A stretch of DNA of 64,000 nucleotides, from the NCBI RefSeq assembly GCF_000332075.2, contig NZ_ALVU02000002.1:186001-250000 (forward strand), in the 5' to 3' direction. Below the pieces are notes generated by a model. The model did no database searches. It was not told the origin of the DNA and saw nothing but the letters and a program-made list of their open reading frames with translations. Shown here piece by piece: positions 6,419 to 54,641 of this stretch; position 1 is the first letter of the stretch, and each line of letters starts with the position of its first letter. This DNA is from Synechocystis sp. PCC 7509 (lineage in GTDB: Bacteria; Cyanobacteriota; Cyanobacteriia; Cyanobacteriales; Chroococcidiopsidaceae). The translations under genes and the position numbers were made by a program.

Positions 6419-8668
6419 TCAGCAATCCAGTTTGAATGGCAATTCTCCAAACTTAGGACTCCACCAGCCTTTTACTGTATGGAAATAAACCGCTTCCTTA
6501 TGCTTAGAATCGCTCTTGGCATTGGAATCCGAACACCTCAGTAAACTCTTGGTTTGACCATCCTTTTGGTAACGGTATTCCTCCAAAGGTTTTTGGCAGA
6601 CGGGGCAGGAATATTGAGTTACTTGAGCATTTGCAGTTTCTAGTGGCGTGTCATTGGTTTGTCCAGTGTGGGGTAGCTGCCACTTTTTATCGCGCTCTGA
6701 CCAAAACATAACTGTATTGATACAACCACTGACACACTTGAGAAAATACTTTTTCTTCAGCTTTGAGCTTGGGATTTTAACTAAATAACTCTGACACTGG
6801 GGGCAACGGGTACGCGATTGGTTATGCTGCCCCGGTTGTTGTTTTGTCTGTGGTTGGGTTGAAGATAATTGGCGTAAAGGACTTCCAATTTGAGCAGCAG
6901 GATTATTGCTGAGGTGAAGCTTAATTACTTGCTTGGCTTTGGCTAAGGCTGGGACAAAATAATCTCGATTCCAAGCAGTCAAATACTGCTGCCAATCCTG
7001 CTTGCCAGCAGAGATCGCATCTAGCTGATTTTCCATCTCGGCAGTAAACTCTGTTTGGAGCAAGTCGGGCAAGGCATCGGCTAAGAAGCAATCTACTTCT
7101 AAGCCCAGTTTAGTCGGCTGTAAGTGACCTTTAATAAGCTCGGCATACTGTCTTTGCTTAAGGGTTTGAATTGTGGCGGCGTAAGTGCTAGGGCGACCAA
7201 TGCCTTTGCGTTCCATAACTTGAACTAATTTAGGTTCGCTGTAACGCGGTGGCGGTTGAGTCTGTTTCTGCTCGTGAAGTGCCTGTTGAAGCGTGAGAAT
7301 TTGCCCTTGCCGTAAGCTAGGCAGTTGGACATCAGCGCTGATGTTATTCCAGTATTTGGTGTAGCCAGGAAATTCAATTAGTTGTCCTTTGGCTTGCCAG
7401 AAAATATTCCCGGATTGAGTAACTATGAGTGTTTGGCGGATTCTCGCATTTTGGCACTGAGAGGCAACAGAGCGCTTCCAAATCATCACGTACAGGGCAA
7501 AGGCATCAGCAGACAATTGGACGCGCAAGTCGGCGCTCCTCTTGTGGATGTCTGTAGGGCGGATAGCTTCATGGGCTGCTTGCGCTCCTTTGACCTGCCT
7601 GTGTTGCGCTAACTTCCTCGGTACGTTGTCAGGGTCATGTACTTCCAACCAACTCCTGACGGCGGCGCAAAATTCTGGAGCTAGGGCAATACTGTCAGTC
7701 CGCATATAGGTAATTAACCCGGATTCATAAAGCGACTGGGCCACAAGCATTGTTTTTTCAGGACTGAACTTCAGCCTCGCTCCTGCGACTTGTTGTAAAG
7801 AAGATGTGACAAAAGCCGGGGGAGGAGTACGAGTAGTGCTTTTTCCTTCAGCAGAAACAATGTGATGTGGATTAGCTTTTGCCTGTTGAACTAAACTATC
7901 TGCGTGGGATGCACTTAAAACTTTGCTTGACTCAAAGTTCGCTTGCTCTTTAGTGTCGCTGGTGTCGTCGAGTAGTGGTGTTTCAGAAGGCTGTGAATCA
8001 TTTTGCTGATTTGTCCCCAAGTAGTAGGCGCGAAACCCCTCAACGTAATCAACATAAACGTTCCAATAATCTTGAGGAACGAAAGCTTGGATTTGCTGCT
8101 CCCTTTGACAAAGAATGTGTAGGGTAGCGCTTTGCACCCGACCCATACTTTTCGCCCCATTTTGAAGCTGCCACAGCAAGGGAGAGCCTTTGTAGCCAAC
8201 TAATTTATCAAGAACGCTCCGGCACAGTCCCGCATTGACCATGTTTTGGTCTATTTGTCGGGGACGAGCGAGCGCTCTTGTGACTGCTGTTGGGGTAATT
8301 TCGGTATAAATGACTCTTTGGGGGTTTTTTAGGTGTAAGGCTTGCCCAAGATGCCAAGCGATTGTTTCCCCTTCTCGGTCACAATCGGTTGCCAGAAAAA
8401 CTGTCTTGACCTGACGAACAGCCGCTTGTAGTTGTTTAATAGTCTGCTGCCCTTTCTCTTGGCGCAGAACAAAGCGACAAGTGACTGTACTACCCGTTAA
8501 GTCAAAGCCCAAAGCATCTTGTCCATCCGATGCTAATTCTCGGACATGACCCATGCTTGCTTTGACCAACCAGTCAGAGCCGAGGATTTGGCTGAGCTTT
8601 TTGATTTTGCCGGGACTTTCAACAATCAGGAGCTTGGTTGCCAAAGCAGTGTTTCCTTTGCACTTCAC
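6419..8668 (-). CDS. topA: DNA topoisomerase I (type IA), plasmid copy
   Basis: 749 residues from ATG 8668; an internal TTG at 8644 giving ATKLLIVESPGK is an equally good start and fits the family better. The enzyme relaxes negative supercoils by single-strand cutting. The N-terminal TOPRIM domain has LLIVESPGK and the acidic triad ATDCDREGETIAWHLG. The active-site tyrosine lies in GLITYMRTDS. The C-terminal part has a CPQC...C...C zinc ribbon and a second CPVC...C segment. It diverges from recD2 with about 115 bases between them, which probably hold both promoters. It is shorter than typical chromosomal cyanobacterial TopA, consistent with an accessory copy. Confidence 0.93.
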   Translation of the reverse strand: MKCKGNTALATKLLIVESPGKIKKLSQILGSDWLVKASMGHVRELASDGQDALGFDLTGSTVTCRFVLRQEKGQQTIKQLQAAVRQVKTVFLATDCDREGETIAWHLGQALHLKNPQRVIYTEITPTAVTRALARPRQIDQNMVNAGLCRSVLDKLVGYKGSPLLWQLQNGAKSMGRVQSATLHILCQREQQIQAFVPQDYWNVYVDYVEGFRAYYLGTNQQNDSQPSETPLLDDTSDTKEQANFESSKVLSASHADSLVQQAKANPHHIVSAEGKSTTRTPPPAFVTSSLQQVAGARLKFSPEKTMLVAQSLYESGLITYMRTDSIALAPEFCAAVRSWLEVHDPDNVPRKLAQHRQVKGAQAAHEAIRPTDIHKRSADLRVQLSADAFALYVMIWKRSVASQCQNARIRQTLIVTQSGNIFWQAKGQLIEFPGYTKYWNNISADVQLPSLRQGQILTLQQALHEQKQTQPPPRYSEPKLVQVMERKGIGRPSTYAATIQTLKQRQYAELIKGHLQPTKLGLEVDCFLADALPDLLQTEFTAEMENQLDAISAGKQDWQQYLTAWNRDYFVPALAKAKQVIKLHLSNNPAAQIGSPLRQLSSTQPQTKQQPGQHNQSRTRCPQCQSYLVKIPSSKLKKKYFLKCVSGCINTVMFWSERDKKWQLPHTGQTNDTPLETANAQVTQYSCPVCQKPLEEYRYQKDGQTKSLLRCSDSNAKSDSKHKEAVYFHTVKGWWSPKFGELPFKLDC

Positions 8669-8784
8669 TATAAAATTATAGTATTTGTGTACTATGAAAT
8701 TAGTGTAAAACCTTGCTTGAGGCTGGTAATTTATAGTAAGGAATGGAGGTTTGAGCAGTCGCTACTTTTAGTGAGGATGGAAAA

Positions 8785-10764
8785 GTGTCTGTTGAGGATG
8801 AGTCACTGGTAGGAGTAGTAGAACGCTTGACGTACCACTCGGCAGAGTCGGGGTATAGTGTAGCGCGGCTTAAAGCTTCAGGTCACAGAGACTTAGTAAC
8901 GATTGTAGGTAGCTTTCCTAATATTCAAGCAGGTCAAACACTAAAACTAGCTGGGATATGGCGGGAGCATCCCAAGTTCGGGCAACAGTTTCAAGTCACA
9001 CAGTATCAGGAAACTAAACCTGCCACGATTACAGGGATTGAAAAGTATTTAGGCTCCGGCTTGATTAAAGGGGTGGGGCCAGTCACCGCCAAACGCATCG
9101 TCGCTCACTTTGGGTTCGATACTTTGGATGTTATTGAACATTCAATTGAGCGCTTAAAAGAAGTCCCCGGCATCGCTACAAAGCGCGTGAAGATGATACA
9201 AGAAGCCTGGGATAAGCAGAAGGCGATTAAAGAAGTGATGGTCTTCTTGCAAGGGCATGGTGTTTCCACAACTTATGCAGTAAAAATTTACAAGCATTAT
9301 GGCGATGATTCGATCACAATTGTTACCAACAATCCGTACCAACTAGCAACGGATATTTATGGGATAGGTTTTGTAACAGCAGATGCGATCGCACGGAACT
9401 TAGGGATCGCACCAGATAGCGAGTATCGATACCGCGCGGGGATTATCCACGTCTTAGGCGAAGCAGCAGAAGACGGTCATTGTTTTTTACCCTATGTGCA
9501 ACTGGTCGAGAAAGTAGTAGAACGATTAACAATAGCCGATCATCAACCATCATCCCAGGTAGTAACCCAACTAATTTATGTAATGGCGATGGACGAGGAG
9601 TTGGTGATGCAGGGTCATCGGCAGCATCAATTTATTTGCTATCAATTACCATTTTTTAGCAGCGAACAGAATTTGGCTAAACGGCTGCATCAGTTGTTGA
9701 GCCGTCCGGTCGTAGTAGATAAAGAGAGAGTTGTTGGATGGATTGACAAGTTTACAAAAGCAACAGGGATGGAGTTATCATCTGGGCAAAGGCAAGCGGT
9801 AGAAATGGCAGCTACTCAAAAAGTCCTAATTCTTACTGGAGGACCTGGAACGGGCAAAACTTTCACAACTCGGACAATTGTGGCATTGTGGAAAGCAATG
9901 GGTAAATCAATTGCTCTAGCTTCGCCGACGGGCAGAGCCGCACAGCGATTGAGCGAGATGACGGGCTGCGAAGCCAAGACTATTCATCGCCTACTGGAAT
10001 TTGACCCCAAGACGATGAAATTCAAGCATGACCTAGAGAATCCAATAGAGGCGCAAGCAATCGGCATAGATGAAGCATCAATGCTTGACCTATTCTTGGC
10101 TCATTCACTGCTGAAAGCAATACCGAATGATGCCCAATTACTTTTAGTAGGGGACATCGATCAGCTTCCTAGTGTGGGACCAGGAAACGTGTTGCGCGAC
10201 CTGATTGCAAGTGAGCAAGTACCTGTAGTGCGATTAGAACAAGTATTTCGCCAAGCTCAAACAAGCCATATTGTCAGCAATGCCCATCGGATTAATTCTG
10301 GGCAGTACCCACGTCTTGAATCGGTATCTCTAAATCCGCGTTCCGATTGTTTATGGTTAAACGCTCCCGAACCTGAACATGGAGTTCAAGGTATTCGAGA
10401 ATTGTTAACAGATGTAATTCCAAAATTAGGTTTTGACCCAGCGAAGGATGTACAGGTGCTATGCCCAATGACTAGGGGAGAAGTGGGAACGCGCAATCTT
10501 AACGCGGTACTGCAAGAATTACTTAATCCACCGTACCAAGGTAAGGCTGAACTATTTCGAGGGGGGATGAAACTGCGCGTGGGCGATCGGGTAATTCAGC
10601 AAGTGAATGACTATAACCGCGAGGTGTTCAACGGTGACTTGGGGACAGTTGCCGCAATTGACACCGAGGAACAAGAGGTGACAGTGCAGTTTGAAGGGCG
10701 GAGTGTCACCTATGACTATGCGGACATTAATGAGTTAGCACTAGCATTTGCTGTGACTATTCAT
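8785..10764 (+). pseudogene. recD2: RecD2 helicase, 5' part, interrupted by a transposon
   Basis: A GTG start at 8785 opens a RecD2-type 5'-3' DNA helicase, a repair and recombination enzyme that works without RecBC. The N-terminal OB-like and helix-hairpin-helix segments are present, Walker A is GGPGTGKTFTT near residue 352, and DEASMLD is the Walker B region. The reading stays RecD-like to AVTIH at residue 660, then changes abruptly. The missing part, starting KAQGSEYPVV, is found in frame at 17884-18108. The join regenerates the TIHKAQGSEYP helicase motif, so the gene was split at this exact codon boundary. The frame runs on 51 codons into the transposon (to 10917), giving a 710-residue truncated product that lacks the final helicase motifs. 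Confidence 0.9.
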
Positions 10765-10888
10765 TATCTTTTACAGAATATTTATATTCAACAACAACAA
10801 CAACGAGTCTTTTTTTATTCATGGTGTAGGGATATCTCGTTACAAAATTTAGCTTATACAACGAGTATCATGACTATATACTTAGTAA

Positions 10889-11965
10889 ATGAAACTCACA
10901 CTGCAAAAAGGAATTGACCCAAACACTTTAGAGATAGTCTGGTTGATGCTAGACGGGGACTATCAGGTCATCGAACCTATTCAGAGGTACCTAACCTATC
11001 TCAGCACTAACAAATCACCTAAGACTGTCGAGGCATACGGTTACGACTTCAAATTGTGGTGGGCTTTTCTTGACAGTAGGCATCTAGACTGGCGGAATAT
11101 TAAGCTAAATGACATAGAAGACTTTGCCTATTGGCTCAGGGTTGGAGATACGTCTGTTTTGTCGATACAACCAGTAGAGGCTAAACGGTCAGAGAAAAGT
11201 ATTAATCGAGCTATCACAGCAATCATGGGTTTTTATGACTACCACATTGTTAATCAAACCGTTGATTTCAAGCAGTTTAATAGGTTTTACCTTCCGTATG
11301 GAATAACTAGACAAGGATTACTGGCAGGCATTGCTAAGAGTAATCCAATTCGACAGAAGCTAGTCAAACTAAAAGAGCCAAAGAAATTTCCTGGTTGTCT
11401 TACTGACGAACAGGTAGAAATTTTAGTCAATACTTGCCATCGCTTGCGAGACAAATTCATAATCCTAATGCTCAACGGAACGGGAATGAGAATCGGAGAG
11501 TTACTGGGACTACAACATGATGATGTTGGAGATGCCAATGACTATTTCATCCAAGTTAAGAAGCGAAATAATCTCAATGAAGCAAGAGCAAAAGGTCAGG
11601 AAAGGTTCATCCCTGTTATTCCTGAACTATTAAAGATGTATGACGACTACCTGATCTACGAGTACCCAGAAGTAGAATCGCCTTATGTATTCGTCAACAT
11701 TTGGGAAGGAGTAGTAGGTCAGCCGATGAAAGCGGGTGTAATCAACACCATGTTCTACCGCTTGAGTGAGAAAACGGGTATTAAGGTATATCCGCACCTG
11801 TTTCGGCATTCATACGCTACAAGGCTTCTCAAAGCCAAATACCCACCAGAGCGGGTAAAACATCTATTGGGACACGCGAGCATTCAAACAACCTTAGATA
11901 TTTATTCTCACGTACTTAGTGAAGGAAATCTCATAGAGGTAGTAGAAAGAGAGGAGAATAAATGA
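10889..11965 (+). CDS. tyrosine recombinase 1 of trio (TnpA-like)
   Basis: 358 residues. An N-terminal SAM-like core-binding domain (about residues 25-120) precedes a phage-integrase catalytic domain. The catalytic residues are visible: Arg in GTGMRIGELLGL, HLFRHSYATRLL for the His-x-x-Arg box, HLLGHAS, and the nucleophile Tyr in LDIYSHV. It should cut and rejoin DNA during excision and insertion of the element. It overlaps the next gene by 4 bases (ATGA), indicating one operon. It begins 124 bases inside the left end of the element, inside the run-on reading frame of the broken recD2. Confidence 0.92.
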   Translation: MKLTLQKGIDPNTLEIVWLMLDGDYQVIEPIQRYLTYLSTNKSPKTVEAYGYDFKLWWAFLDSRHLDWRNIKLNDIEDFAYWLRVGDTSVLSIQPVEAKRSEKSINRAITAIMGFYDYHIVNQTVDFKQFNRFYLPYGITRQGLLAGIAKSNPIRQKLVKLKEPKKFPGCLTDEQVEILVNTCHRLRDKFIILMLNGTGMRIGELLGLQHDDVGDANDYFIQVKKRNNLNEARAKGQERFIPVIPELLKMYDDYLIYEYPEVESPYVFVNIWEGVVGQPMKAGVINTMFYRLSEKTGIKVYPHLFRHSYATRLLKAKYPPERVKHLLGHASIQTTLDIYSHVLSEGNLIEVVEREENK

Positions 11966-22597: not shown

Positions 22598-23734
22598 TTA
22601 TTCAAACAAGCATAATTGAACTGGTTTTGGTTCTTGGGCGCAGTCGAGATTTGATAGGGAAATACCTAATAGCCGGACGCTGCGCCCCTCTAAAGAAATT
22701 GCTGCTAACAGTTCCTCAGCTATTTGGCTAATTGCCTGTGCTTCGCCAATAGCAGCAGATACGGTTTTACTGCGCGTAATTTGCTGATAGTCGGCAAACT
22801 TGACTTTTAGGGTGATGGTGCGTCCCAAAGCTTGGTAGTTTTCTAAGCGATGCTGGAGGGTTTGAGCAATATTTTCTAATTCCAGTAGCATTATTTTTAG
22901 TTCGTCTAAGTCTTTGGTGAACGAAGTTTCTGCTCCGATTGATTTGCGAATGCGGTTAGGCTCAACTATGCGGTTATCCTCTGCCCTAGCAATGAGGTAA
23001 TAGAAATGTCCTACTTTGCCGAAGTGACGCACTAAATCGGCTTGGCTGTATTGCTTCAAGTCTATTCCAGTATGGATGCCCAAATTGTTCATTTTGGTGG
23101 CAGTGACTTCTCCAATCCCGTGAAACTTCTCAATAGGTAGGGCAGCAACAAAATCTACGGCGTGTTCGGGTAGAATTACCGTTAATCCGTTGGGCTTATT
23201 CATGCCTGATGCCATTTTTGCCAGGAACTTATTTACAGAAACTCCTGCACTTGCCGTTAGGCTAGTTTCTGCCAGAATTGCTGCCTTAATCTGCCGAGCA
23301 ATAGTTGTAGCGTAAGGCAGCCCTAGTTTATTTTGGCTGACATCAAGGTATGCCTCATCTAAGGCTACAGGCTCTACTAGATCCGTATAGCGCTTAAAGA
23401 TAGCGTGAATTTCCGCACTAATGCTGCGGTAGACCTCGAAGCGGGGTGGAGCAAAGACCAGAGCAGGACATTTTTGCAGGGCGAGGTAGGAGGGCATGGC
23501 AGAATGAACACCAAACTTCCTAGCCCCGTAACTAGCAGCAACTACTACACCACGCTCCTGGGGTAATCCACCGACCACAAGGGGTTTCCCTCGGTAGTTA
23601 TGGTTGTCCCGTTGTTCAACCGAGGCATAAAAAGCATCGAGATCGACGTGCAGGATCTTTCTCAGAGTTTTAAAGAATAAGTAAACATTAAATGTGGAAT
23701 TAGGTTGGCAACTACTATAGGCTATTGACAACAA
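22598..23734 (-). CDS. dinB: DNA polymerase IV (Y family)
   Basis: 378 residues. The translesion polymerase motifs are clear: ILHVDLDAFYASVEQRD with the first metal-binding Asp, VALDEAYLDVS with the Asp-Glu pair, ASAGVSVNKFLAKMAS, and a helix-hairpin-helix FHGIGEVTATKM. The last residues QLCLFE look like a beta-clamp binding motif. The ATG at 23734 gives about 25 extra residues before RKILHVDLDA, longer than usual, but no other normal start lies closer. It probably gives the plasmid a mutagenic repair function. Confidence 0.9.
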   Translation of the reverse strand: MLSIAYSSCQPNSTFNVYLFFKTLRKILHVDLDAFYASVEQRDNHNYRGKPLVVGGLPQERGVVVAASYGARKFGVHSAMPSYLALQKCPALVFAPPRFEVYRSISAEIHAIFKRYTDLVEPVALDEAYLDVSQNKLGLPYATTIARQIKAAILAETSLTASAGVSVNKFLAKMASGMNKPNGLTVILPEHAVDFVAALPIEKFHGIGEVTATKMNNLGIHTGIDLKQYSQADLVRHFGKVGHFYYLIARAEDNRIVEPNRIRKSIGAETSFTKDLDELKIMLLELENIAQTLQHRLENYQALGRTITLKVKFADYQQITRSKTVSAAIGEAQAISQIAEELLAAISLEGRSVRLLGISLSNLDCAQEPKPVQLCLFE

Positions 23735-26392: not shown

Positions 26393-27224
26393 GGTTGTGT
26401 TGCAAAAAATGGTAGGCTGAAATAATTCCGCTAGAGAAAATCATTGTACCGGCCTCTAATGAATTCTAAATCCCCCTTCAAGTGGCGGCATTATCAGTCA
26501 GAAATCATCCTACGTTGTGTTCGGTGGTATCTAAGCTATCCGCTTTCCTATCGCCAAGTAACAGAGATGGTGAACGAGCGGGGATTAGATATACATCACA
26601 GCACCGTCTTCCGTTGGGTGCAAGAATATAGTCCAGAAATGGACAAACGAGTCAGACCGTATCTAAAGCTTACTAATGACTCATGGCGGGTAGATGAAAC
26701 CTATATTTTGGTCAAAGGCAAGCAGAAGTATTTATACCGAGCAGTCGATTCGGCAGGGAACACCTTAGACTTCCTCCTCACAGCGAAGCGGGATGCGAAA
26801 GCGGCGAAACGGTTTTTGCGTAAGACATTGAAAGCAATTCACACTTCCGTACCAAGAGTCATCACTGTGGATAAGAACCCTGCTTATCCAAAAGCGATTA
26901 ACGTACTCAAAGCTGCCAATAAGTTACCCGAAGTAGTGAAATTACGACAGATTAAATATCTCAATAATATTGTGGAGCAAGACCATCGGGGGATAAAACG
27001 ATTAGTCAAACCAGGAATGGGATTTGGCTCCTTCAACACTGCAAGAAGAACCATTCGGGGATATGAAACTCTGAACATGGTTAGAAAAGGACAAGTTATT
27101 GGTGTTCCCAGGGGAGCCATCAAAGAGCGACTTGTCTTTATCTATCAAATCTTTGGGGTAGTTGCATAATTTCAACTCCTGCCACAGGGGTTTTCTGTCT
27201 TCACTAAGTTTTTGCAACACAACC
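26393..27224 (+). mobile_element. IS6-family insertion sequence, copy 1
   Basis: 832 bp with perfect 16-bp terminal inverted repeats GGTTGTGTTGCAAAAA. Left outer flank CTGCTGCC and right outer flank CTCCGCAC do not match, so there is no target duplication. The element truncates a gene on each side, which fits formation by IS6-type replicative recombination with loss of the original partner. Confidence 0.95.
26459..27169 (+). CDS. IS6-family transposase
   Basis: 236 residues from ATG 26459 (a TTG at 26444 keeps the frame). The DDE catalytic residues fall in WRVDETYILVKG, ITVDKNPAYPKA and IVEQDHRGIKR, typical of the family. An N-terminal helix-turn-helix (YPLSYRQVTEMVNERG) should bind the ends. 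The product is identical in the complete copies 1, 2 and 3 and in the visible part of copy 4. Confidence 0.95.
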   Translation: MNSKSPFKWRHYQSEIILRCVRWYLSYPLSYRQVTEMVNERGLDIHHSTVFRWVQEYSPEMDKRVRPYLKLTNDSWRVDETYILVKGKQKYLYRAVDSAGNTLDFLLTAKRDAKAAKRFLRKTLKAIHTSVPRVITVDKNPAYPKAINVLKAANKLPEVVKLRQIKYLNNIVEQDHRGIKRLVKPGMGFGSFNTARRTIRGYETLNMVRKGQVIGVPRGAIKERLVFIYQIFGVVA

Positions 27225-44818: not shown

Positions 44819-45650
44819 GGTTGTGTTGCAAAAAATGGTAGGCTGAAATAATTCCGCTAGAGAAAATCATTGTACCGGCCTCTAATGAATTCTAAATCCC
44901 CCTTCAAGTGGCGGCATTATCAGTCAGAAATCATCCTACGTTGTGTTCGGTGGTATCTAAGCTATCCGCTTTCCTATCGCCAAGTAACAGAGATGGTGAA
45001 CGAGCGGGGATTAGATATACATCACAGCACCGTCTTCCGTTGGGTGCAAGAATATAGTCCAGAAATGGACAAACGAGTCAGACCGTATCTAAAGCTTACT
45101 AATGACTCATGGCGGGTAGATGAAACCTATATTTTGGTCAAAGGCAAGCAGAAGTATTTATACCGAGCAGTCGATTCGGCAGGGAACACCTTAGACTTCC
45201 TCCTCACAGCGAAGCGGGATGCGAAAGCGGCGAAACGGTTTTTGCGTAAGACATTGAAAGCAATTCACACTTCCGTACCAAGAGTCATCACTGTGGATAA
45301 GAACCCTGCTTATCCAAAAGCGATTAACGTACTCAAAGCTGCCAATAAGTTACCCGAAGTAGTGAAATTACGACAGATTAAATATCTCAATAATATTGTG
45401 GAGCAAGACCATCGGGGGATAAAACGATTAGTCAAACCAGGAATGGGATTTGGCTCCTTCAACACTGCAAGAAGAACCATTCGGGGATATGAAACTCTGA
45501 ACATGGTTAGAAAAGGACAAGTTATTGGTGTTCCCAGGGGAGCCATCAAAGAGCGACTTGTCTTTATCTATCAAATCTTTGGGGTAGTTGCATAATTTCA
45601 ACTCCTGCCACAGGGGTTTTCTGTCTTCACTAAGTTTTTGCAACACAACC
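44819..45650 (+). mobile_element. IS6-family insertion sequence, copy 2
   Basis: 832 bp with the same GGTTGTGTTGCAAAAA ends as copy 1 and in the same orientation. The outer flanks, TTTGGACT and AAAAAAAG, do not match. It truncates the Tn3 transposase on its left and a hypothetical gene on its right. Confidence 0.95.
44885..45595 (+). CDS. IS6-family transposase
   Basis: Identical in protein sequence to the copy at 26459, with the same DDE motifs. The ATG at 44885 is the preferred start. Confidence 0.95.
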   Translation: MNSKSPFKWRHYQSEIILRCVRWYLSYPLSYRQVTEMVNERGLDIHHSTVFRWVQEYSPEMDKRVRPYLKLTNDSWRVDETYILVKGKQKYLYRAVDSAGNTLDFLLTAKRDAKAAKRFLRKTLKAIHTSVPRVITVDKNPAYPKAINVLKAANKLPEVVKLRQIKYLNNIVEQDHRGIKRLVKPGMGFGSFNTARRTIRGYETLNMVRKGQVIGVPRGAIKERLVFIYQIFGVVA

Positions 45651-49209: not shown

Positions 49210-50109
49210 ACTCCACCAATAACTCAAAAATCTAAGTGCTTAAAAAAATTTCACATCCAGTCTTTAGCTTTAGCCCTCAAAGAATTACCAATTCACTGGC
49301 TGCTTACACCAACAATTGACAAGCAACCAGTAGAATTTGAATGGCAAAAACATCCATTTACGCCCGAAAGCCTCTTTGAGCAACTTAATACCTGCGGTCA
49401 AGTACGAGTCAAAAGCAAATTAAAAGGCTCCAGTAGCATTACCCCCACAGGTTTTGCGATAGTTTGCGGACAAAACAGTCTTGAATATTTAATCGCCATT
49501 GATTGCGATGGCGAGAGGGTTCATGAAGCAATTCCTACTTTGCCACCCACCGTCGCTTTTACTTCGGGGCGACCAGGACGAGCGCAGTATTTGTACAAAA
49601 CTAACATCAGTTGCGACCGTTTAAAATCAAGAAAGATTGCCATTACACCTATTGAGAAATTAGAGCTTCGAGGTACAGGTCATGCTTCGGTATTACCACC
49701 ATCCAAACATCCAATAACTGGAAGATACTATTGGCTACCGGGGCGCAGTCCCAAACAAATTGAAGTGGCTACAGCACCTGACTTTGCGATCGCGCAAATG
49801 TTGATTACACCGCCTAGTCTCAAAGCGCAAAATACTGTTGTGACTTACTACCCCAAAAGCGCAGATAGGGAAGAAAAAAGGGCATTACATTATCTCCAAA
49901 AGATTCCTGCTCACTTTGCCGATGATTACCACTCTTGGCTACAAATTGGCATGGCACTAAAAAGCGTTAGCCCAGACCTATTAGATGCTTGGGACAAGTG
50001 GAGCCAACAATCTCCGAAATACAAACCAGGAGAATGTCAGTGGCGCTGGCAATCGTTTAAAAATCTTCGTTCTACCATTGGAACGCTTTATTACTTTGCA
50101 CACAAATAG
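49210..50109 (+). pseudogene. bifunctional primase-polymerase, 5' end damaged or unusual start
   Basis: The frame is open from 49210 and is protein-like from at least LALALKELPIHWLLTP (49264). The primase-polymerase core includes GFAIVCG, LIAIDCDG with the acidic pair, and RPGRAQYLYKT. The C-terminal region (FADDYHSWLQIGMALKS, WDKWSQQS) is the primase C-terminal domain. No ATG, GTG or TTG occurs in frame before the TTG at 49540, which would delete the catalytic centre; upstream only ATA and ATC are present. So the gene has lost its start or uses a rare one. It lies 11 bases before the PRTRC genes on the same strand. Confidence 0.7.
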
Positions 50110-50120
50110 GTGAATCAACC

Positions 50121-50534
50121 ATGTCAGAAGATTTTGAAAATGACGATACTGAGGATACTGAAGACATTGAGAACGATAAAGCCGCGTCTTCAAGCGGTCT
50201 TCAAGACAAATACAGTTTTGATGCCACGACTTTATTAATAGGCTTGCAAATACTACCGGGAGTTGAAGGCAGTAGACAAGTGTTAGTTACAGCAGGCATT
50301 AAAGGAGAGCCACCAATTATCACTAGCACTGTTTTGGCAGAAATTGCCCAAAGTTCTGTGTTAGCTGAGGCATTAGAGCAATTAAAGCAGTTGCTACCAC
50401 AAAGAGCTAAGGAAGCCGCAACTAAAGAAGCTGCTTTGATTGCTTCTACTAAAACCAAAACAAAAGTGCCAATCCCAGACCTTCCTGTTCCTCATAATAC
50501 AACCGAACCAAGTCAACTCACCTTATTTACATAA
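50121..50534 (+). CDS. PRTRC system protein E
   Basis: 137 residues. The first 30 are acidic. LLIGLQILPGVEGSRQVLVTAGIKG and a helix with EALEQLKQLLPQRAKEAATK correspond to protein E of the ParB-related, ThiF-related cassette, and the end LTLFT resembles the short hydrophobic tails found there. The assignment is weak on sequence alone but is supported by position: it starts the run E-C-F-B-A-ThiF. Function unknown. It is followed 3 bases later by protein C. Confidence 0.6.
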   Translation: MSEDFENDDTEDTEDIENDKAASSSGLQDKYSFDATTLLIGLQILPGVEGSRQVLVTAGIKGEPPIITSTVLAEIAQSSVLAEALEQLKQLLPQRAKEAATKEAALIASTKTKTKVPIPDLPVPHNTTEPSQLTLFT

Positions 50535-50537
50535 TCC

Positions 50538-50969
50538 ATGCCCTACAAATTATTCCTCGAAGGTCAAGAGATACCCTTATCCGATGAAATTGCAGCTACC
50601 GATGACAATTTACGAGGTGCAATAGCTCCCTACTTTCCAGAAGTAGGCACTGCGGAAATTGTTCGTCAAGAGAAAAATGGAATTACAGAAATTCGCCTGA
50701 TCAAACGGGCGGGAACAAAAGGAAATAACGCTCTCCAAAGCTTGATGGCTAGTGAGACAGAAGTTAACCCAGCTTTAGAACTAACCTGGCAATTAAAGCA
50801 GTTAGAACAACAAGGCAATTTGAGCATTGAAACTCTAATTAGCCTCCAAGACCAAATAGATAACGCGGTCAAAACTGGCGAAGACTGGGAAAGAACAATA
50901 ACTGATAGTTTAAAAGTTTTAAGCAAATGTTCGCCAATTCCTGCACAATTTCCTATTATCGGGATTTAA
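50538..50969 (+). CDS. PRTRC system protein C, beta-grasp (ubiquitin-like) with a C-terminal extension
   Basis: 143 residues. Residues 1-61 (PYKLFLEGQEIPLSDE to KRAGTKG) match the short protein C of PRTRC cassettes, which has a ubiquitin-like beta-grasp look and usually ends at GTKG. Here about 80 more residues follow as helices. An E1-like enzyme and a JAMM peptidase are encoded three and four genes downstream, so processing after the GTKG is conceivable, though there is no direct evidence. It overlaps protein F by 43 bases. Confidence 0.7.
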   Translation: MPYKLFLEGQEIPLSDEIAATDDNLRGAIAPYFPEVGTAEIVRQEKNGITEIRLIKRAGTKGNNALQSLMASETEVNPALELTWQLKQLEQQGNLSIETLISLQDQIDNAVKTGEDWERTITDSLKVLSKCSPIPAQFPIIGI

Positions 50970-51676
50970 CTGCTTTTAAGCTGCCTCTTACCGTTCCAGA
51001 CTCTGTATCGTACTTAAGCAACCTAAATCAAAAGACAATTCTGCTTGCCCTTTATCAACACTATTTTCCCGACGAGTGGGCAAGCTCTCAAGTAGATTGG
51101 TTGACTTGCACTAATGACTGTTTGTGTAGCGATCGTGAAATTGAGTTTTTAACTTTAGTCAACGATCGCTTATTTCCTCTTGGGGAAGTAGACAATCTCG
51201 ATAGAGATGAAAGGTTGTCAGAAATCCTCCTATATCCGCAAAATACCGATTGGTACGATGCGGAACTTGAGCAATTAACTGATACCGAGCAATTTTTGAT
51301 CTCAGTTTTGGGCTGTGGTTACTTGCTAACCAATTGGTTGGAAGAATTCAAGTTTGAACCGGAAAAGTTAGTAAGTGCCGAACAAATAGATTTTGAGAAG
51401 CTAAAGTTGCTATGCGACGAACACACTTCTCCCTTATCACTTCTATACGATGTTTTAAGTCTAATTGACCACAGTACAGGTTGCATTTGGCTCGATATTG
51501 TTTGGGAAGATTACGAATGCTTCACTTGGGAGCAAAAATCTATTGACTATTTAACTCAAGACTGGGTAATCGCTCAACCCTACTTAACCAAGATGACAGA
51601 ATTCGACCAATGGCTGCAAGCCGACATAAATAACCGCAAGGAAGTTGTTGAATTATGGAACAGTGCCAAGAAATAA
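50927..51676 (+). CDS. PRTRC system protein F-like
   Basis: 249 residues from ATG 50927, inside the end of protein C. Recognisable features are few: KLPLTVPDSV near the start and many Trp/Asp/Leu-rich helices, with DWLTCTNDC and WLDIVWEDYECF. The name comes mainly from its place between proteins C and B in the standard gene order. No catalytic motif seen. Overlaps protein B by 22 bases. Confidence 0.55.
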   Translation: MFANSCTISYYRDLTAFKLPLTVPDSVSYLSNLNQKTILLALYQHYFPDEWASSQVDWLTCTNDCLCSDREIEFLTLVNDRLFPLGEVDNLDRDERLSEILLYPQNTDWYDAELEQLTDTEQFLISVLGCGYLLTNWLEEFKFEPEKLVSAEQIDFEKLKLLCDEHTSPLSLLYDVLSLIDHSTGCIWLDIVWEDYECFTWEQKSIDYLTQDWVIAQPYLTKMTEFDQWLQADINNRKEVVELWNSAKK

Positions 51677-52389
51677 GTAAACAGGCGCTAAATACTAGCG
51701 ACATTGCCCGAAGTCTCGCAAATAGAACCGATAACCCAAATATTCAAGCCCAACTCCTATTTATGGAGGGGCAGTACCTTTTTGTTGACAATCAAACAGA
51801 TCGCAAAACTTACAAGTTTCTGTCCCCTAGCAGCGTTAAAGAAGCTTTTAGCAATCTCCCTTTGAGTTCGGGATTTTTACCCGCCAATACTATTCAATGG
51901 GGAATGCGGGATGCCTGCGAATACCTAGTGCAGTATATCCCACCGCATCAGCAAGCTTTAACTCTTAGTAATGCTGGGGGCGATCGCTTAGTGACGATTA
52001 CGATACCAATTCCTGGAATGCTATTTATGGGCTGGGGACTAAAATATTGGCTTTGGTCGGTAAAAGATAAGCAACTTACCCCAGAGTCGCAACTATTCCA
52101 CGCACCATTGCCTAACGTGATGGAAACTGGTGCTATTTGTTTTGGAACCACACCGTTTAGTCCCTGTTCTGCTTCAAACATAGTCAAAACTTGGGATGGA
52201 TTTTGGCACAGTCCTTTTAACGATCATGTAGTGCAATCGAAATCTAACAAATTCCCCAAAGATGTGCGTTCTCAACTACTCCAATTGCACGGAAAAGAAA
52301 AAAAAGCCAGAACTTATCCCCTTAGCGATCTAATCAGCTTTAAACAAAATGTCAGTAGTGTTATCAAGTCAATTATTGAAGCTCGGTAG
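51655..52389 (+). CDS. PRTRC system protein B
   Basis: 244 residues. KFLSPSSVKEAFSNLPLSSG, TIQWGMRDACEYLVQYIPP, IPIPGMLFMGWG and WDGFWHSPFNDH follow the protein B pattern. Its biochemical role is unknown. It overlaps protein A by 41 bases, as expected for a tightly coupled operon. Confidence 0.75.
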   Translation: MEQCQEISKQALNTSDIARSLANRTDNPNIQAQLLFMEGQYLFVDNQTDRKTYKFLSPSSVKEAFSNLPLSSGFLPANTIQWGMRDACEYLVQYIPPHQQALTLSNAGGDRLVTITIPIPGMLFMGWGLKYWLWSVKDKQLTPESQLFHAPLPNVMETGAICFGTTPFSPCSASNIVKTWDGFWHSPFNDHVVQSKSNKFPKDVRSQLLQLHGKEKKARTYPLSDLISFKQNVSSVIKSIIEAR

Positions 52390-52990
52390 TACGTTTGTAT
52401 CTTACAATATTGCTACAAGCATTTTGCTTCCGCCTATTAGCTCCAATCTTCAAGAGTATTGGTTAGCAGGAAACGGAGTATTTCTAAGAGGAGCTAGAAA
52501 TGGAATTCATGTATGCGCTCACTTATGCGCGTTAAATATTCCAGGCTTGCCAAAACTTGAGCCTTACTTTAATTTCACCTTTCCTTGCGTACCGCCGCAT
52601 TTACTATCTACGATGCTAGAACTATCTGTTGCTGCCGGACAAGAGGAAGTTTTATTCTATTTGGCTTTTACAGAAGGTATTTGGCAGCTATTAATCCCCG
52701 ACCAAATTGCTACAGAGTATAGTGTTACCCCAACTAATCCCCTCGATCCTTTCTACGAGTCAGCGATCATAGAAGTTCACTCTCATCACCAGATGGAAGC
52801 GGAATTTTCTTTTACTGACGATAAAGAAGAATCTGGCAAATTTAGGCTGTTTGCAGTTTTGGGAGAAATATTTACAAGTTCCACCATTAGCGTCCGGGTG
52901 GGTATCTACAATCATTTTCAAGTTCTACCTGCTTCTAAAGTATTTCAACTACCACCAGGTATTACCGATGCAAATAGATTTGTCTTATAG
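52349..52990 (+). CDS. PRTRC system protein A, JAMM-type metallopeptidase
   Basis: 213 residues. A full JAMM motif is visible: His144-x-His146, seven residues, Ser154, two residues, Asp157 (HSHHQMEAEFSFTDD), with a Glu in the QEEVLFYLAF strand near residue 98 as the likely fourth ligand. Such enzymes remove ubiquitin-like proteins or process precursors. RVGIYNHF follows. In this cassette it stands next to an E1-like gene, so it probably acts on a protein carrying the beta-grasp fold. Overlaps ThiF by 23 bases. Confidence 0.8.
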   Translation: MSVVLSSQLLKLGSTFVSYNIATSILLPPISSNLQEYWLAGNGVFLRGARNGIHVCAHLCALNIPGLPKLEPYFNFTFPCVPPHLLSTMLELSVAAGQEEVLFYLAFTEGIWQLLIPDQIATEYSVTPTNPLDPFYESAIIEVHSHHQMEAEFSFTDDKEESGKFRLFAVLGEIFTSSTISVRVGIYNHFQVLPASKVFQLPPGITDANRFVL

Positions 52991-53798
52991 CCAATCTGTA
53001 CCGCTAGTTGTCTCCCAGCATGACCATGTAATGTTTCTATTGGTTGGTGCAGGCGGAACGGGAGGATTTTTAATTGGTGCGATCGCCAGATTAATGAAGG
53101 AAATTGAGGCAACTACTAATAAAACTACTTCATGTACAGTTATTGACCCGGATATTATCGAAGCAAAAAATATCCCTAGGCAAAACTTCCAACCTGGAGA
53201 TATTGGTTTACCGAAAGCCGAAGTCTTGGCAGCAAGGTACGCTCTTGCTATGGGCTGTAATATTGGTGCTATTAATCAGCACTTTACGATTGAAATGGCA
53301 AAAGCACACTGGCATACTCTAATCATCGTAGTTGGTTGCGTAGACAATGCCGCCGCTCGTCAGACAATTGCTGAAAGTCTTGGTAGAGGAAATGGAACTT
53401 ATTATTTGCCCGATACTTGGTGGCTCGATTGCGGCAACCACCGTACTTCTGGGCAAGTTCTACTCGGTTCGTCAAGTTGCTTCAAGTTTGAAAAAGCCTT
53501 CGATAACTTAGCTCAACCAAACTTCTGTAAGCATCTGCCTAGTCCCGCTCTTGTTCATCCTGAATTACTACAACCTTTGCCAGAGGAGATTGCCCAAACT
53601 CCTCTTTCTTGTGCGGAATTAATAGCTCGAAACCAACAGAGTTTGTTTGTCAATCAGCACGTTGCCGCGATCGCCAGTGAATATCTATTAGCTCTTACTT
53701 TAACAGGGGGGTTGAGAAAATTTGCGACTTACTTTGATATCAATTCTGGTTCGTCGCGGAGCTTATATACTCACCCCGATACTTTAGCCAGGTATTAA
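52968..53798 (+). CDS. PRTRC system ThiF family (E1-like) protein
   Basis: 276 residues from ATG 52968. The nucleotide-binding motif is VGAGGTGGFL at residues 26-35; DPDIIEAKNIPRQNF and GCVDNAAARQ are the usual E1/ThiF adenylation residues (Asp, Arg). TWWLDCGNHRTSGQVLLG contains a Cys in the region used as a switch or thiolate in the family. These enzymes adenylate the C-terminus of a ubiquitin-like protein. The gene closes the operon 11 bases before IS6 copy 3; the PRTRC D and ParB genes of the standard set are not seen. Confidence 0.85.
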   Translation: MQIDLSYSQSVPLVVSQHDHVMFLLVGAGGTGGFLIGAIARLMKEIEATTNKTTSCTVIDPDIIEAKNIPRQNFQPGDIGLPKAEVLAARYALAMGCNIGAINQHFTIEMAKAHWHTLIIVVGCVDNAAARQTIAESLGRGNGTYYLPDTWWLDCGNHRTSGQVLLGSSSCFKFEKAFDNLAQPNFCKHLPSPALVHPELLQPLPEEIAQTPLSCAELIARNQQSLFVNQHVAAIASEYLLALTLTGGLRKFATYFDINSGSSRSLYTHPDTLARY

Positions 53799-53809
53799 AC
53801 AGTACGAAC

Positions 53810-54641
53810 GGTTGTGTTGCAAAAACTTAGTGAAGACAGAAAACCCCTGTGGCAGGAGTTGAAATTATGCAACTACCCCAAAGATTTGATAGATAAAGAC
53901 AAGTCGCTCTTTGATGGCTCCCCTGGGAACACCAATAACTTGTCCTTTTCTAACCATGTTCAGAGTTTCATATCCCCGAATGGTTCTTCTTGCAGTGTTG
54001 AAGGAGCCAAATCCCATTCCTGGTTTGACTAATCGTTTTATCCCCCGATGGTCTTGCTCCACAATATTATTGAGATATTTAATCTGTCGTAATTTCACTA
54101 CTTCGGGTAACTTATTGGCAGCTTTGAGTACGTTAATCGCTTTTGGATAAGCAGGGTTCTTATCCACAGTGATGACTCTTGGTACGGAAGTGTGAATTGC
54201 TTTCAATGTCTTACGCAAAAACCGTTTCGCCGCTTTCGCATCCCGCTTCGCTGTGAGGAGGAAGTCTAAGGTGTTCCCTGCCGAATCGACTGCTCGGTAT
54301 AAATACTTCTGCTTGCCTTTGACCAAAATATAGGTTTCATCTACCCGCCATGAGTCATTAGTAAGCTTTAGATACGGTCTGACTCGTTTGTCCATTTCTG
54401 GACTATATTCTTGCACCCAACGGAAGACGGTGCTGTGATGTATATCTAATCCCCGCTCGTTCACCATCTCTGTTACTTGGCGATAGGAAAGCGGATAGCT
54501 TAGATACCACCGAACACAACGTAGGATGATTTCTGACTGATAATGCCGCCACTTGAAGGGGGATTTAGAATTCATTAGAGGCCGGTACAATGATTTTCTC
54601 TAGCGGAATTATTTCAGCCTACCATTTTTTGCAACACAACC
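53810..54641 (-). mobile_element. IS6-family insertion sequence, copy 3
   Basis: 832 bp, same ends as copies 1 and 2 but inverted. Outer flanks GTACGAAC and AGTAGTAG do not match. It cuts off whatever followed the PRTRC ThiF gene and the start of the coiled-coil gene on its right. Confidence 0.95.
53865..54575 (-). CDS. IS6-family transposase
   Basis: Identical in protein sequence to the other complete copies; ATG at 54575 preferred (TTG at 54590 also in frame). Confidence 0.95.
   Translation of the reverse strand: MNSKSPFKWRHYQSEIILRCVRWYLSYPLSYRQVTEMVNERGLDIHHSTVFRWVQEYSPEMDKRVRPYLKLTNDSWRVDETYILVKGKQKYLYRAVDSAGNTLDFLLTAKRDAKAAKRFLRKTLKAIHTSVPRVITVDKNPAYPKAINVLKAANKLPEVVKLRQIKYLNNIVEQDHRGIKRLVKPGMGFGSFNTARRTIRGYETLNMVRKGQVIGVPRGAIKERLVFIYQIFGVVA

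Follow-up and report, generated by a model that had tools for sequence, protein, structure and literature searches.

A diverged PRTRC-type cassette from a cyanobacterium as a candidate clamp-docked ubiquitin-like conjugation system

Cassettes of the PRTRC type sit on many large plasmids, and annotated members follow a gene order exemplified by Cupriavidus pHG1 (ParB-E-C-F-B-A-ThiF). The PRTRC family is the one modelled by NCBIfam TIGR03734–TIGR03739. Here we analyse a cassette of this kind from Synechocystis sp. PCC 7509, located at positions 50121–53798 of a 64,000-nucleotide window (the whole stretch of DNA analysed, corresponding to positions 186001–250000 of contig NZ_ALVU02000002.1). Six intact, co-directional open reading frames (ORFs) occur in the order E-C-F-B-A-ThiF. 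On balance, we think that they probably encode a ubiquitin-like (Ubl) conjugation system, docked on the sliding clamp and active at the replication fork.

The closest description is that of operon type 6d by Iyer, Burroughs and Aravind in 2006 (PMC1779556), for which an E1 (activating enzyme), E2 (conjugating enzyme), JAB and Ubl logic was predicted. Its components are a small Ubl with a conserved C-terminal glycine, a helical protein, an E2 with a cysteine, a JAB with an N-terminal domain and an E1. All of these recur here, and from the listed features we infer that type 6d is PRTRC. The type 6d Ubl ends in glycine, however, whereas the one studied here runs into a tail, and neither a clamp motif nor a dnaN link appears in the section of that paper that deals with type 6d. 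According to the relevant sections of PMC11354881, the Bil system (BilABCD) likewise comprises a Ubl, an E1, an E2 and a JAMM protease that processes the Ubl to a bare glycine. By contrast, the present cassette has a single Ubl domain followed by a helical tail, two extra proteins (E and F), replication genes as neighbours in its relatives and no evidence of a defence role. Bub operons, as outlined in parts of PMC13373217 and represented by BubCD in the PDB, share the general logic and a distantly homologous E1-like domain, whereas E1 and E2 are separate genes here. A search of the open-access literature returned neither the relationship between JAMM and Ubl extensions nor the link between clamp motif and dnaN that we describe below.

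A diverged PRTRC-type variant

ThiF passed the cut-off of its NCBIfam model (TIGR03736; 148.7 bits, cut-off 144.75), whereas B (TIGR03737; 59.8 bits, E value 2e-16, cut-off 131.45) and A (TIGR03735; 36.3 bits, E value 4e-9, cut-off 101.8) matched theirs significantly but below threshold. E, C and F had no NCBIfam match at an E value of 1 or less and at most Pfam noise (E value of 0.048 or more, under cut-off). A profile search of the genome found no match to PRTRC ParB (TIGR03734), and we therefore class the locus as a diverged variant of the PRTRC type instead of a full cassette. The search for PRTRC protein D (TIGR03739) was also empty in this genome, but as it found nothing in any control genome either it is uninformative. 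Further differences from the annotated cassette are the helical tail fused to C and a PrimPol (bifunctional DNA primase/polymerase) frame upstream.

A first-pass annotation, made from the letters of the window, had described a complete PRTRC operon in the known order on a plasmid, with overlaps of 22–43 bases from C to ThiF, a full H-x-H-x7-S-x2-D motif in A and an E1-like ThiF. The order, the overlaps (C/F 43, F/B 22, B/A 41 and A/ThiF 23 bases), the motif and the ThiF assignment were all borne out, and completeness holds for the six genes but not for ParB. The profile check that it advised has the mixed outcome given above. Of its trio of Ubl, JAMM and E1-like proteins, the JAMM and E1-like members are real and the Ubl is supported by prediction; it left out the E2 (protein B), and it overlooked the tail of C, the clamp-binding motif of E and the dnaN neighbours in relatives. 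A plasmid location also seems right: the contig is 332,442 bp long in a 4.9-Mb genome of four contigs, and relatives of the cassette lie on annotated plasmids, from which we infer that this contig is one as well. The statement that the function is undescribed stands for experiments, of which our search found none for PRTRC-type cassettes in the open-access literature, but not for the enzyme logic, which was predicted in 2006 (PMC1779556).

The ThiF of the window matched 293 of 72,556 plasmid records (60 listed; not each need be PRTRC), and protein C matched 27, of which 17 are conjugative plasmids. Among 292 sampled cyanobacterial genomes, 183 matched the ThiF model at an E value of 0.001 and one exceeded its cut-off. 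Strong matches occurred in five (98–148 bits, source genome included), the next best scoring 54 bits, and we regard the weaker matches as ThiF/MoeB proteins of other kinds. The scan of a genome collection contributed the best 80 of 168 loci, from cyanobacteria, Acidobacteriota, Chloroflexota and others, and two scans of viral contigs (IMG/VR) contributed 160 loci (the best 80 of 167 plus the best 80 of 121), some contigs being in both scans and some possibly being plasmids. We recovered the cassette order with profiles built from hand-picked seeds. Where at least 4.5 kb of sequence precedes the ThiF frame (229 loci), we detected B in 227 (one of the other two has B elsewhere on its plasmid), the Ubl in 209 and A in 170; E (172 loci) and F (121 loci) are the most diverged of the proteins, and a miss of either is not proof of absence.

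Protein C as a predicted precursor

The Ubl part of protein C (143 amino acids) ends in IKRAGTKG at residue 62 and is followed by a tail of 81 residues. As the single-sequence fold was poor (mean predicted local distance difference test (pLDDT) 59), we used a model based on an alignment of 19 sequences (mean pLDDT 77). In this model, strands at residues 3–7, 10–14, 40–46 and 49–55 and short helices between residues 16 and 38 form a ββ-α-ββ arrangement. Blocks of the Ubl domain had pLDDT values of 67–82 and the tail helices had block means of up to 91; residues 59–63, which lie between the two folded parts, were the sole run of three or more residues below 50. Comparison with PRTRC C proteins by hhalign (probability 83.5, E value 8e-6) gave an alignment that runs through GTKG, and K61 and G62 were invariant in 19/19 aligned sequences. 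Three PRTRC C proteins tested match Pfam Prok_Ub and three window-side relatives do not, while TIGR03738 weakly matches two of the 19 aligned C proteins (best E value 0.035). Named Ubl chains were among the first 50 Foldseek matches, beside protein L/G and others, none of them significant.

In Oscillatoria, Planktothrix, Pseudanabaena and some Acidobacteriota, two genes encode the Ubl domain and the tail, with the break directly after KG. Ubiquitin-fusion precursors have the same layout of Ubl plus tail, and C appears to be such a precursor, with a predicted Ubl domain and a helical tail. Fused and separate tails alike frequently end, across lineages, in IPxGF or SKYPVL; the tail of this C ends in FPIIGI.

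Ubl extensions were seen only beside JAMM

Protein A fell just under the cut-off of Pfam PF14464 Prok-JAB (23.2 bits, cut-off 25; E value 6.5e-5). Its residues E100, H144, H146, S154 and D157 were invariant in 16/16 aligned A proteins, and E100 is presumably the JAMM glutamate. We then compared the presence of JAMM with the end of the Ubl in 210 loci that have ThiF and a readable Ubl, omitting loci without a detectable Ubl or cut by contig ends; Chroococcidiopsis was kept, because its plasmid carries the Ubl at another place. We counted as an extension anything beyond the KG position, even a single residue (range 1 to 125). JAMM and an extension occurred together in 150 loci, JAMM without an extension in 15 and neither in 45; an extension without JAMM was not seen (0). 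After removal of near-duplicates (173 rows), the counts were 117, 14, 42 and 0, that is, an extension in 117/131 JAMM-positive and 0/42 JAMM-negative rows, where negative status refers to the locus and JAMM elsewhere in those genomes is possible. Five Ubl ends were ambiguous, and we assigned them by eye: L179 and L180 as extended, and L219 (which ends in TKA instead of TKG), L228 and L249 as not. A relaxed JAMM pattern was found in 131/131 positive rows and in 7/42 negative rows, there in unlike ORFs only and with the HSH core in none.

Split genes gave a similar picture. Of 17 standalone Ubl genes beside JAMM, 16 encode 2–6 extra residues (for example, VK, AV, TV, GI and RSADSH) and one encodes 82. 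In three Planktothrix loci, where JAMM was not found, the Ubl gene stops exactly at GSKG. On Planktothrix plasmid p1, A is missing between B and ThiF, and this plasmid was not among the 37 plasmid records that matched the Oscillatoria JAMM. On two Deinococcus plasmids and one each from Parabacteroides, Pseudoalteromonas and Marinobacter, the Ubl ends at G and A was not seen in the stretch examined, and Cupriavidus, Polaromonas and Manganitrophus have both A and extensions. Because extensions were seen only with JAMM, and the Planktothrix gene, which has no A beside it, ends in the glycine, the most likely maturation protease of C is A, which is predicted to cut after KG. The 15 JAMM-positive loci that lack an extension have nothing to process, which suggests a second role for A, such as tag removal. 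One of the Planktothrix cassettes (L128, 7114–10852; Planktothrix sp. PCC 11201) looks decayed, its F being interrupted by about 1.2 kb and its ThiF split.

Predicted E2 and E1 enzymes

Protein B matched Pfam PF14460 Prok-E2_D with 102.6 bits (E value 2.5e-29; gathering score 25). It is thus identified by its sequence as an E2, and Cys162, which is invariant in 17/17 aligned B proteins in a PLPN...ICFG context, is the predicted active site. ThiF contains GxGGxG and a Cys215 that is likewise invariant in 17/17. An SC pair, which we equate with ThiF Cys215 by context, was invariant in 10/10 wider PRTRC E1 proteins. Profile matches of ThiF in the PDB included UBA6, UBA5, ThiF, the NEDD8/SUMO E1 and BubCD. 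Because these alignments did not extend to the E1 cysteine, the case for Cys215 as a candidate catalytic cysteine comes from conservation. With B as an E2, A with a full JAMM site, an E1-like ThiF and C as a Ubl, the cassette is predicted to be an E1-E2-JAMM-Ubl set.

Protein E ends in a putative clamp-binding motif

Protein E (137 residues) ends in SQLTLFT, in which QLTLF (residues 132–136) fits the pattern Q-phi-x-[LM]-[FL] at the terminus. The consensus of bacterial sliding-clamp ligands is QL[S/D]LF, or more widely Q-phi-x-[L/M]-[F/L], as stated in passages of PMC12309361 and PMC11139829. In the cyanobacterial-acidobacterial set, the strict motif lay in the last 12 residues of 66/78 E proteins (23/35 clusters) and in none of 537 other cassette proteins (80 Ubl (U), 79 tail (X), 91 F, 94 B, 92 A and 101 ThiF; a fused C frame contributes to both U and X, and near-identical loci are kept). 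When the last 40 residues of E were shuffled, the motif arose in a mean of 0.028 of the 35 clusters, with a maximum of 1. Seven of the 12 cluster representatives that lack the strict motif have QxxLF-like ends (for example, QQSLFG, QANLFAS and QRSLF). In the wider E set, a looser pattern, [QT]xx[LM]F, was found in 21/99 E proteins compared with 1/656 other proteins. The clamp motif of E is therefore firm in the cyanobacterial-acidobacterial clade and variable beyond it. A motif akin to that of E also ends another frame of the window, which we read as a DinB-like polymerase (22598–23734; QLCLFE).

Clamp genes next to the cassette in relatives

On plasmids of Anabaena, Sphaerospermopsis, Trichormus, Scytonema and Chroococcidiopsis, dnaN, dnaX and a DNA polymerase gene lie 1–5 kb downstream of the cassette in the same direction, and PrimPol lies upstream (some of these neighbours were identified by profile). 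In Chroococcidiopsis, E-C-F-B and A-ThiF are about 34 kb apart. A dnaN profile matched the flanks of 50 of the 269 loci scanned (44 distinct; six contigs were counted twice), always on the cassette strand; these were 6/18 annotated-plasmid, 27/80 genome and 6/80 and 10/80 viral loci, plus L240. At L216, L219, L229, L286, L291, L300, L311 and L314, dnaN lies within 13 nucleotides of the open frame of E or overlaps it, and at L323 its overlap is with the frame of ThiF. In 4/4 neighbouring dnaN genes tested, the three Pfam domains of DnaN were all present. At least 23 of the 36 listed cyanobacterial ThiF plasmid records also carry dnaN, in the same record but not always near, a co-occurrence drawn from 60 listed of 293 dnaN records.

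The nearest relative that we found, in Chlorogloea sp. CCALA 695 (L077; ThiF 82%), matches the window at 74–85% in four blocks between 46001 and 53813. Past its cassette follow a 97-residue ORF, dnaN, dnaX, holA and holB (the last two by our reading), and then topA and recD2. In the source genome, dnaN and a dnaX above cut-off were found only on contig C1, not on the cassette contig C2. None of the four clamp-module proteins of Chlorogloea had a tblastn match on C2, and its topA and recD2 each matched two places there. Because an insertion sequence (IS) element stands where Chlorogloea has dnaN-dnaX and no clamp genes were found on the contig, an IS-linked rearrangement most likely removed the clamp module here and left an intact but orphaned cassette. 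The pair that we read as topA-recD2 occurs twice on C2 in opposite orientation (window 6419–10917 and C2:41511–45228), which hints at a composite plasmid.

A proposed role at the replication fork

In eukaryotes, PCNA is ubiquitylated and SUMOylated, and this is the basis of our analogy. The proposed likeness lies in the conjugation of a modifier that is steered by a clamp-binding motif, whereas no E3 was identified here and clamp modification is only proposed. C would be made as a precursor, and comparative evidence suggests that A would cut it behind the conserved KG, leaving the glycine as the free C terminus. ThiF, judging from its homologues, would adenylate this glycine, take the Ubl onto its own invariant cysteine and hand it to Cys162 of B. 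E may tether the machinery to the β sliding clamp through QLTLF, a docking to which the motif and the gene neighbourhood point. The substrates, at a guess, would be the clamp or clamp-bound proteins. A could also take the tag off, because in some loci with JAMM the Ubl has no extension to be cut away. By analogy with PCNA, such a system may serve to control plasmid replication or repair. As no plasmid clamp was found in this genome, E would have to use the chromosomal clamp here.

We hold a bolder proposal only tentatively, and would not bet on it as it stands: that PRTRC is the bacterial counterpart of PCNA ubiquitylation, in which a plasmid E1-E2-JAMM set would covalently tag the sliding clamp or proteins bound to it, guided by a clamp-docking E and with the modifier cut by JAMM from a precursor. 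If true, ubiquitin-style control of the sliding clamp would exist in bacteria. Precise questions about this unexplained cassette arise from its clamp motif, from dnaN as a neighbour and from the rule that ties extensions to JAMM.

Evidence against and alternative explanations

Several observations weigh against a clamp-docked conjugation system. Conjugates, substrate and clamp binding are all predictions, and five of the six cassette proteins miss the cut-offs of the PRTRC models. The model of C has a predicted template modelling score of 0.37 and no significant Foldseek match (best E value 0.2), so that the beta-grasp-like fold given to C in the first-pass annotation stands as a predicted ββ-α-ββ arrangement and no further. 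In the wider E set the strict motif was found in 0/99, and many E proteins end in acidic runs. Only a minority of loci have dnaN in their flanks (27/80 genome and 16/160 viral loci), counts that have no background rate beside them and hence yield no enrichment figure, and neither profile nor tblastn searches found dnaN on the cassette contig. As for the extensions, 20/229 loci with enough upstream DNA lack a detectable Ubl and are uncounted, except Chroococcidiopsis; 15/165 JAMM-positive loci lack an extension; and the three Planktothrix loci are a single lineage, with F and ThiF broken in L128.

The co-occurrence of JAMM and extensions might also reflect nothing but shared ancestry, with neutral tails and no part for A in maturation. 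The 15 loci with JAMM and no extension would fit this, as would the small number of independent events: on a ThiF tree (FastTree, 173 rows) JAMM changed at least five times and the extension 14 times, and with only three JAMM changes on supported branches a sign test gives P = 0.25. In the three independent supported-branch pairs, however, the extension changed in the same direction in 2.9 on average and never in the opposite one. None of the ten extension changes without a JAMM change fell into the JAMM-negative part, which makes up 28.7% of the tree length; with changes spread by length, P is about 0.034 (a rough, parsimony-based estimate). Together with the 45 JAMM-negative loci, not one of which has any residue past the terminal glycine position, and the 2–6 extra residues in 16/17 split genes beside JAMM and none in Planktothrix, this leads us to consider ancestry alone improbable. 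We give even less credence to a sulphur-carrier system of the ThiS/MoaD kind, in which ThiF and C would supply sulphur for small-molecule or tRNA modification. It would account for the ThiF/MoeB homology and for a carrier ending in glycine, and passages of PMC1779556 indicate that JAMM proteins can process carriers. An E2-like B in nearly all loci with enough upstream DNA (227/229), with its invariant cysteine, speaks against it, and none of 28 annotated stretches has an annotated sulphur-carrier pathway gene, many genes there being 'hypothetical'.

A more serious rival, which we nevertheless think unlikely, keeps the Ubl system and its maturation by JAMM but not its direction to the clamp: the motif of E would only co-localize plasmid machinery, and the substrates would be partition or transfer proteins (PRTRC ParB, relaxase or type IV secretion system). 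Cupriavidus, Pseudoalteromonas, Manganitrophus and Marinobacter do have a ParB gene upstream of the cassette, a profile from these four matched 6/80 genome and 35/160 viral loci, and many plasmid records with protein C are conjugative (17/27). Yet the search of this genome yielded no PRTRC ParB, and ParB was detected in only 1/18 annotated-plasmid and 6/80 genome loci, although the E motif is kept there. The first-pass annotation had noted that prokaryotic relatives of its trio act in protein modification and some in phage defence, and an anti-phage or anti-plasmid system of the Bil, CBASS or Bub kind would share the enzyme logic of Bil and Bub; in some plasmids CRISPR or CBASS genes adjoin the cassette. 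In PADLOC, four of the six proteins matched nothing, ThiF matched only generic E1-E2 models (best E value 4e-6) and no specific defence-system model was matched. The remaining hit was of protein C (50538–50969) to PDLC01077, labelled 'C3a152, Type III-C specific' CRISPR accessory (E value 2.6e-34; 18/19 aligned C proteins). We rejected C as a Type III-C accessory, as there are no cmr-like genes at the 19 aligned loci (they were seen only at L033, L034 and L080) and the label looks like a neighbourhood artefact. Replication genes, albeit among chosen genes only, recur as neighbours. The defence link is not supported here and we rate it as a poor prospect. We continue to favour clamp-docked conjugation.

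Features of the locus and its surroundings

Coordinates are listed in Table 1; the start of ThiF (ATG at 52968) is our own reading.

Table 1. Features of the cassette and its immediate neighbours (window positions)
Feature	Position	Strand	Evidence
PrimPol (bifunctional DNA primase/polymerase) frame, upstream neighbour	49210..50109	+	PF08707 and PF09250 on 49540-50109; PrimPol profile E value 2e-92 over 49210-50109
Protein E, 137 residues: small domain, variable linker, putative C-terminal clamp-binding motif	50121..50534	+	ORF; no NCBIfam match
QLTLF, putative β-clamp-binding motif, E residues 132-136	50514..50528	+	Motif statistics; consensus in passages of PMC12309361 and PMC11139829
Protein C, 143 residues	50538..50969	+	ORF
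Ubl domain of C, residues 1-62, end AGTKG	50538..50723	+	ββ-α-ββ model; hhalign to PRTRC C
G-T-K-G, C residues 59-62, predicted JAMM cleavage site and mature C terminus	50712..50723	+	Conservation; low pLDDT; split genes
Helical tail X of C, residues 63-143 (81 residues); separate gene in some relatives	50724..50966	+	Model; gene comparison
Protein F, 249 residues	50927..51676	+	No family match; position kept in relatives
Protein B, E2-like (Prok-E2_D)	51655..52389	+	PF14460 E value 2.5e-29; TIGR03737 E value 2e-16
Cys162 of B, predicted E2 active-site cysteine (PLPN..ETGAICFG)	52138..52140	+	P151, N154, C162 and G164 invariant in 17/17 B
Protein A, JAMM peptidase	52349..52990	+	TIGR03735 E value 4e-9 and PF14464 E value 6.5e-5, both under cut-off
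JAMM motif H144-S-H146-x7-S154-x2-D157	52778..52819	+	Invariant in 16/16
ThiF, E1-like activating enzyme, 276 residues	52968..53798	+	TIGR03736 over cut-off; PDB profile matches
Cys215 of ThiF (LSCAE), candidate catalytic cysteine	53610..53612	+	Invariant in 17/17
IS transposase gene, 66 bp past the ThiF stop	53865..54590	-	End of collinearity with Chlorogloea

The first ATG, GTG or TTG of the PrimPol frame is at 49540, in the middle of the domain, and its start may be lost or non-standard. PrimPol is annotated at the equivalent place in L033, L035 and L036 and was detected by profile in 25/80 genome loci. An identical 241-residue transposase is encoded three times in the window (26444–27169, 44870–45595 and 53865–54590), the last copy directly behind ThiF.

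With a proteobacterial ThiF as a single query we obtained no viral-contig match, whereas an alignment query did find loci; phage records contained six distant ThiF matches, and none of the six cassette proteins had a match in PHROGs. The many viral-classed contigs with PRTRC-type cassettes (L157–L236 and L245–L324) may be phages, phage-plasmids or misfiled plasmids. On an Oscillatoria plasmid (L065, 12931–16128), a CBASS-like pair, consisting of a DncV-like nucleotidyltransferase and a SAVED protein, lies beside ThiF.

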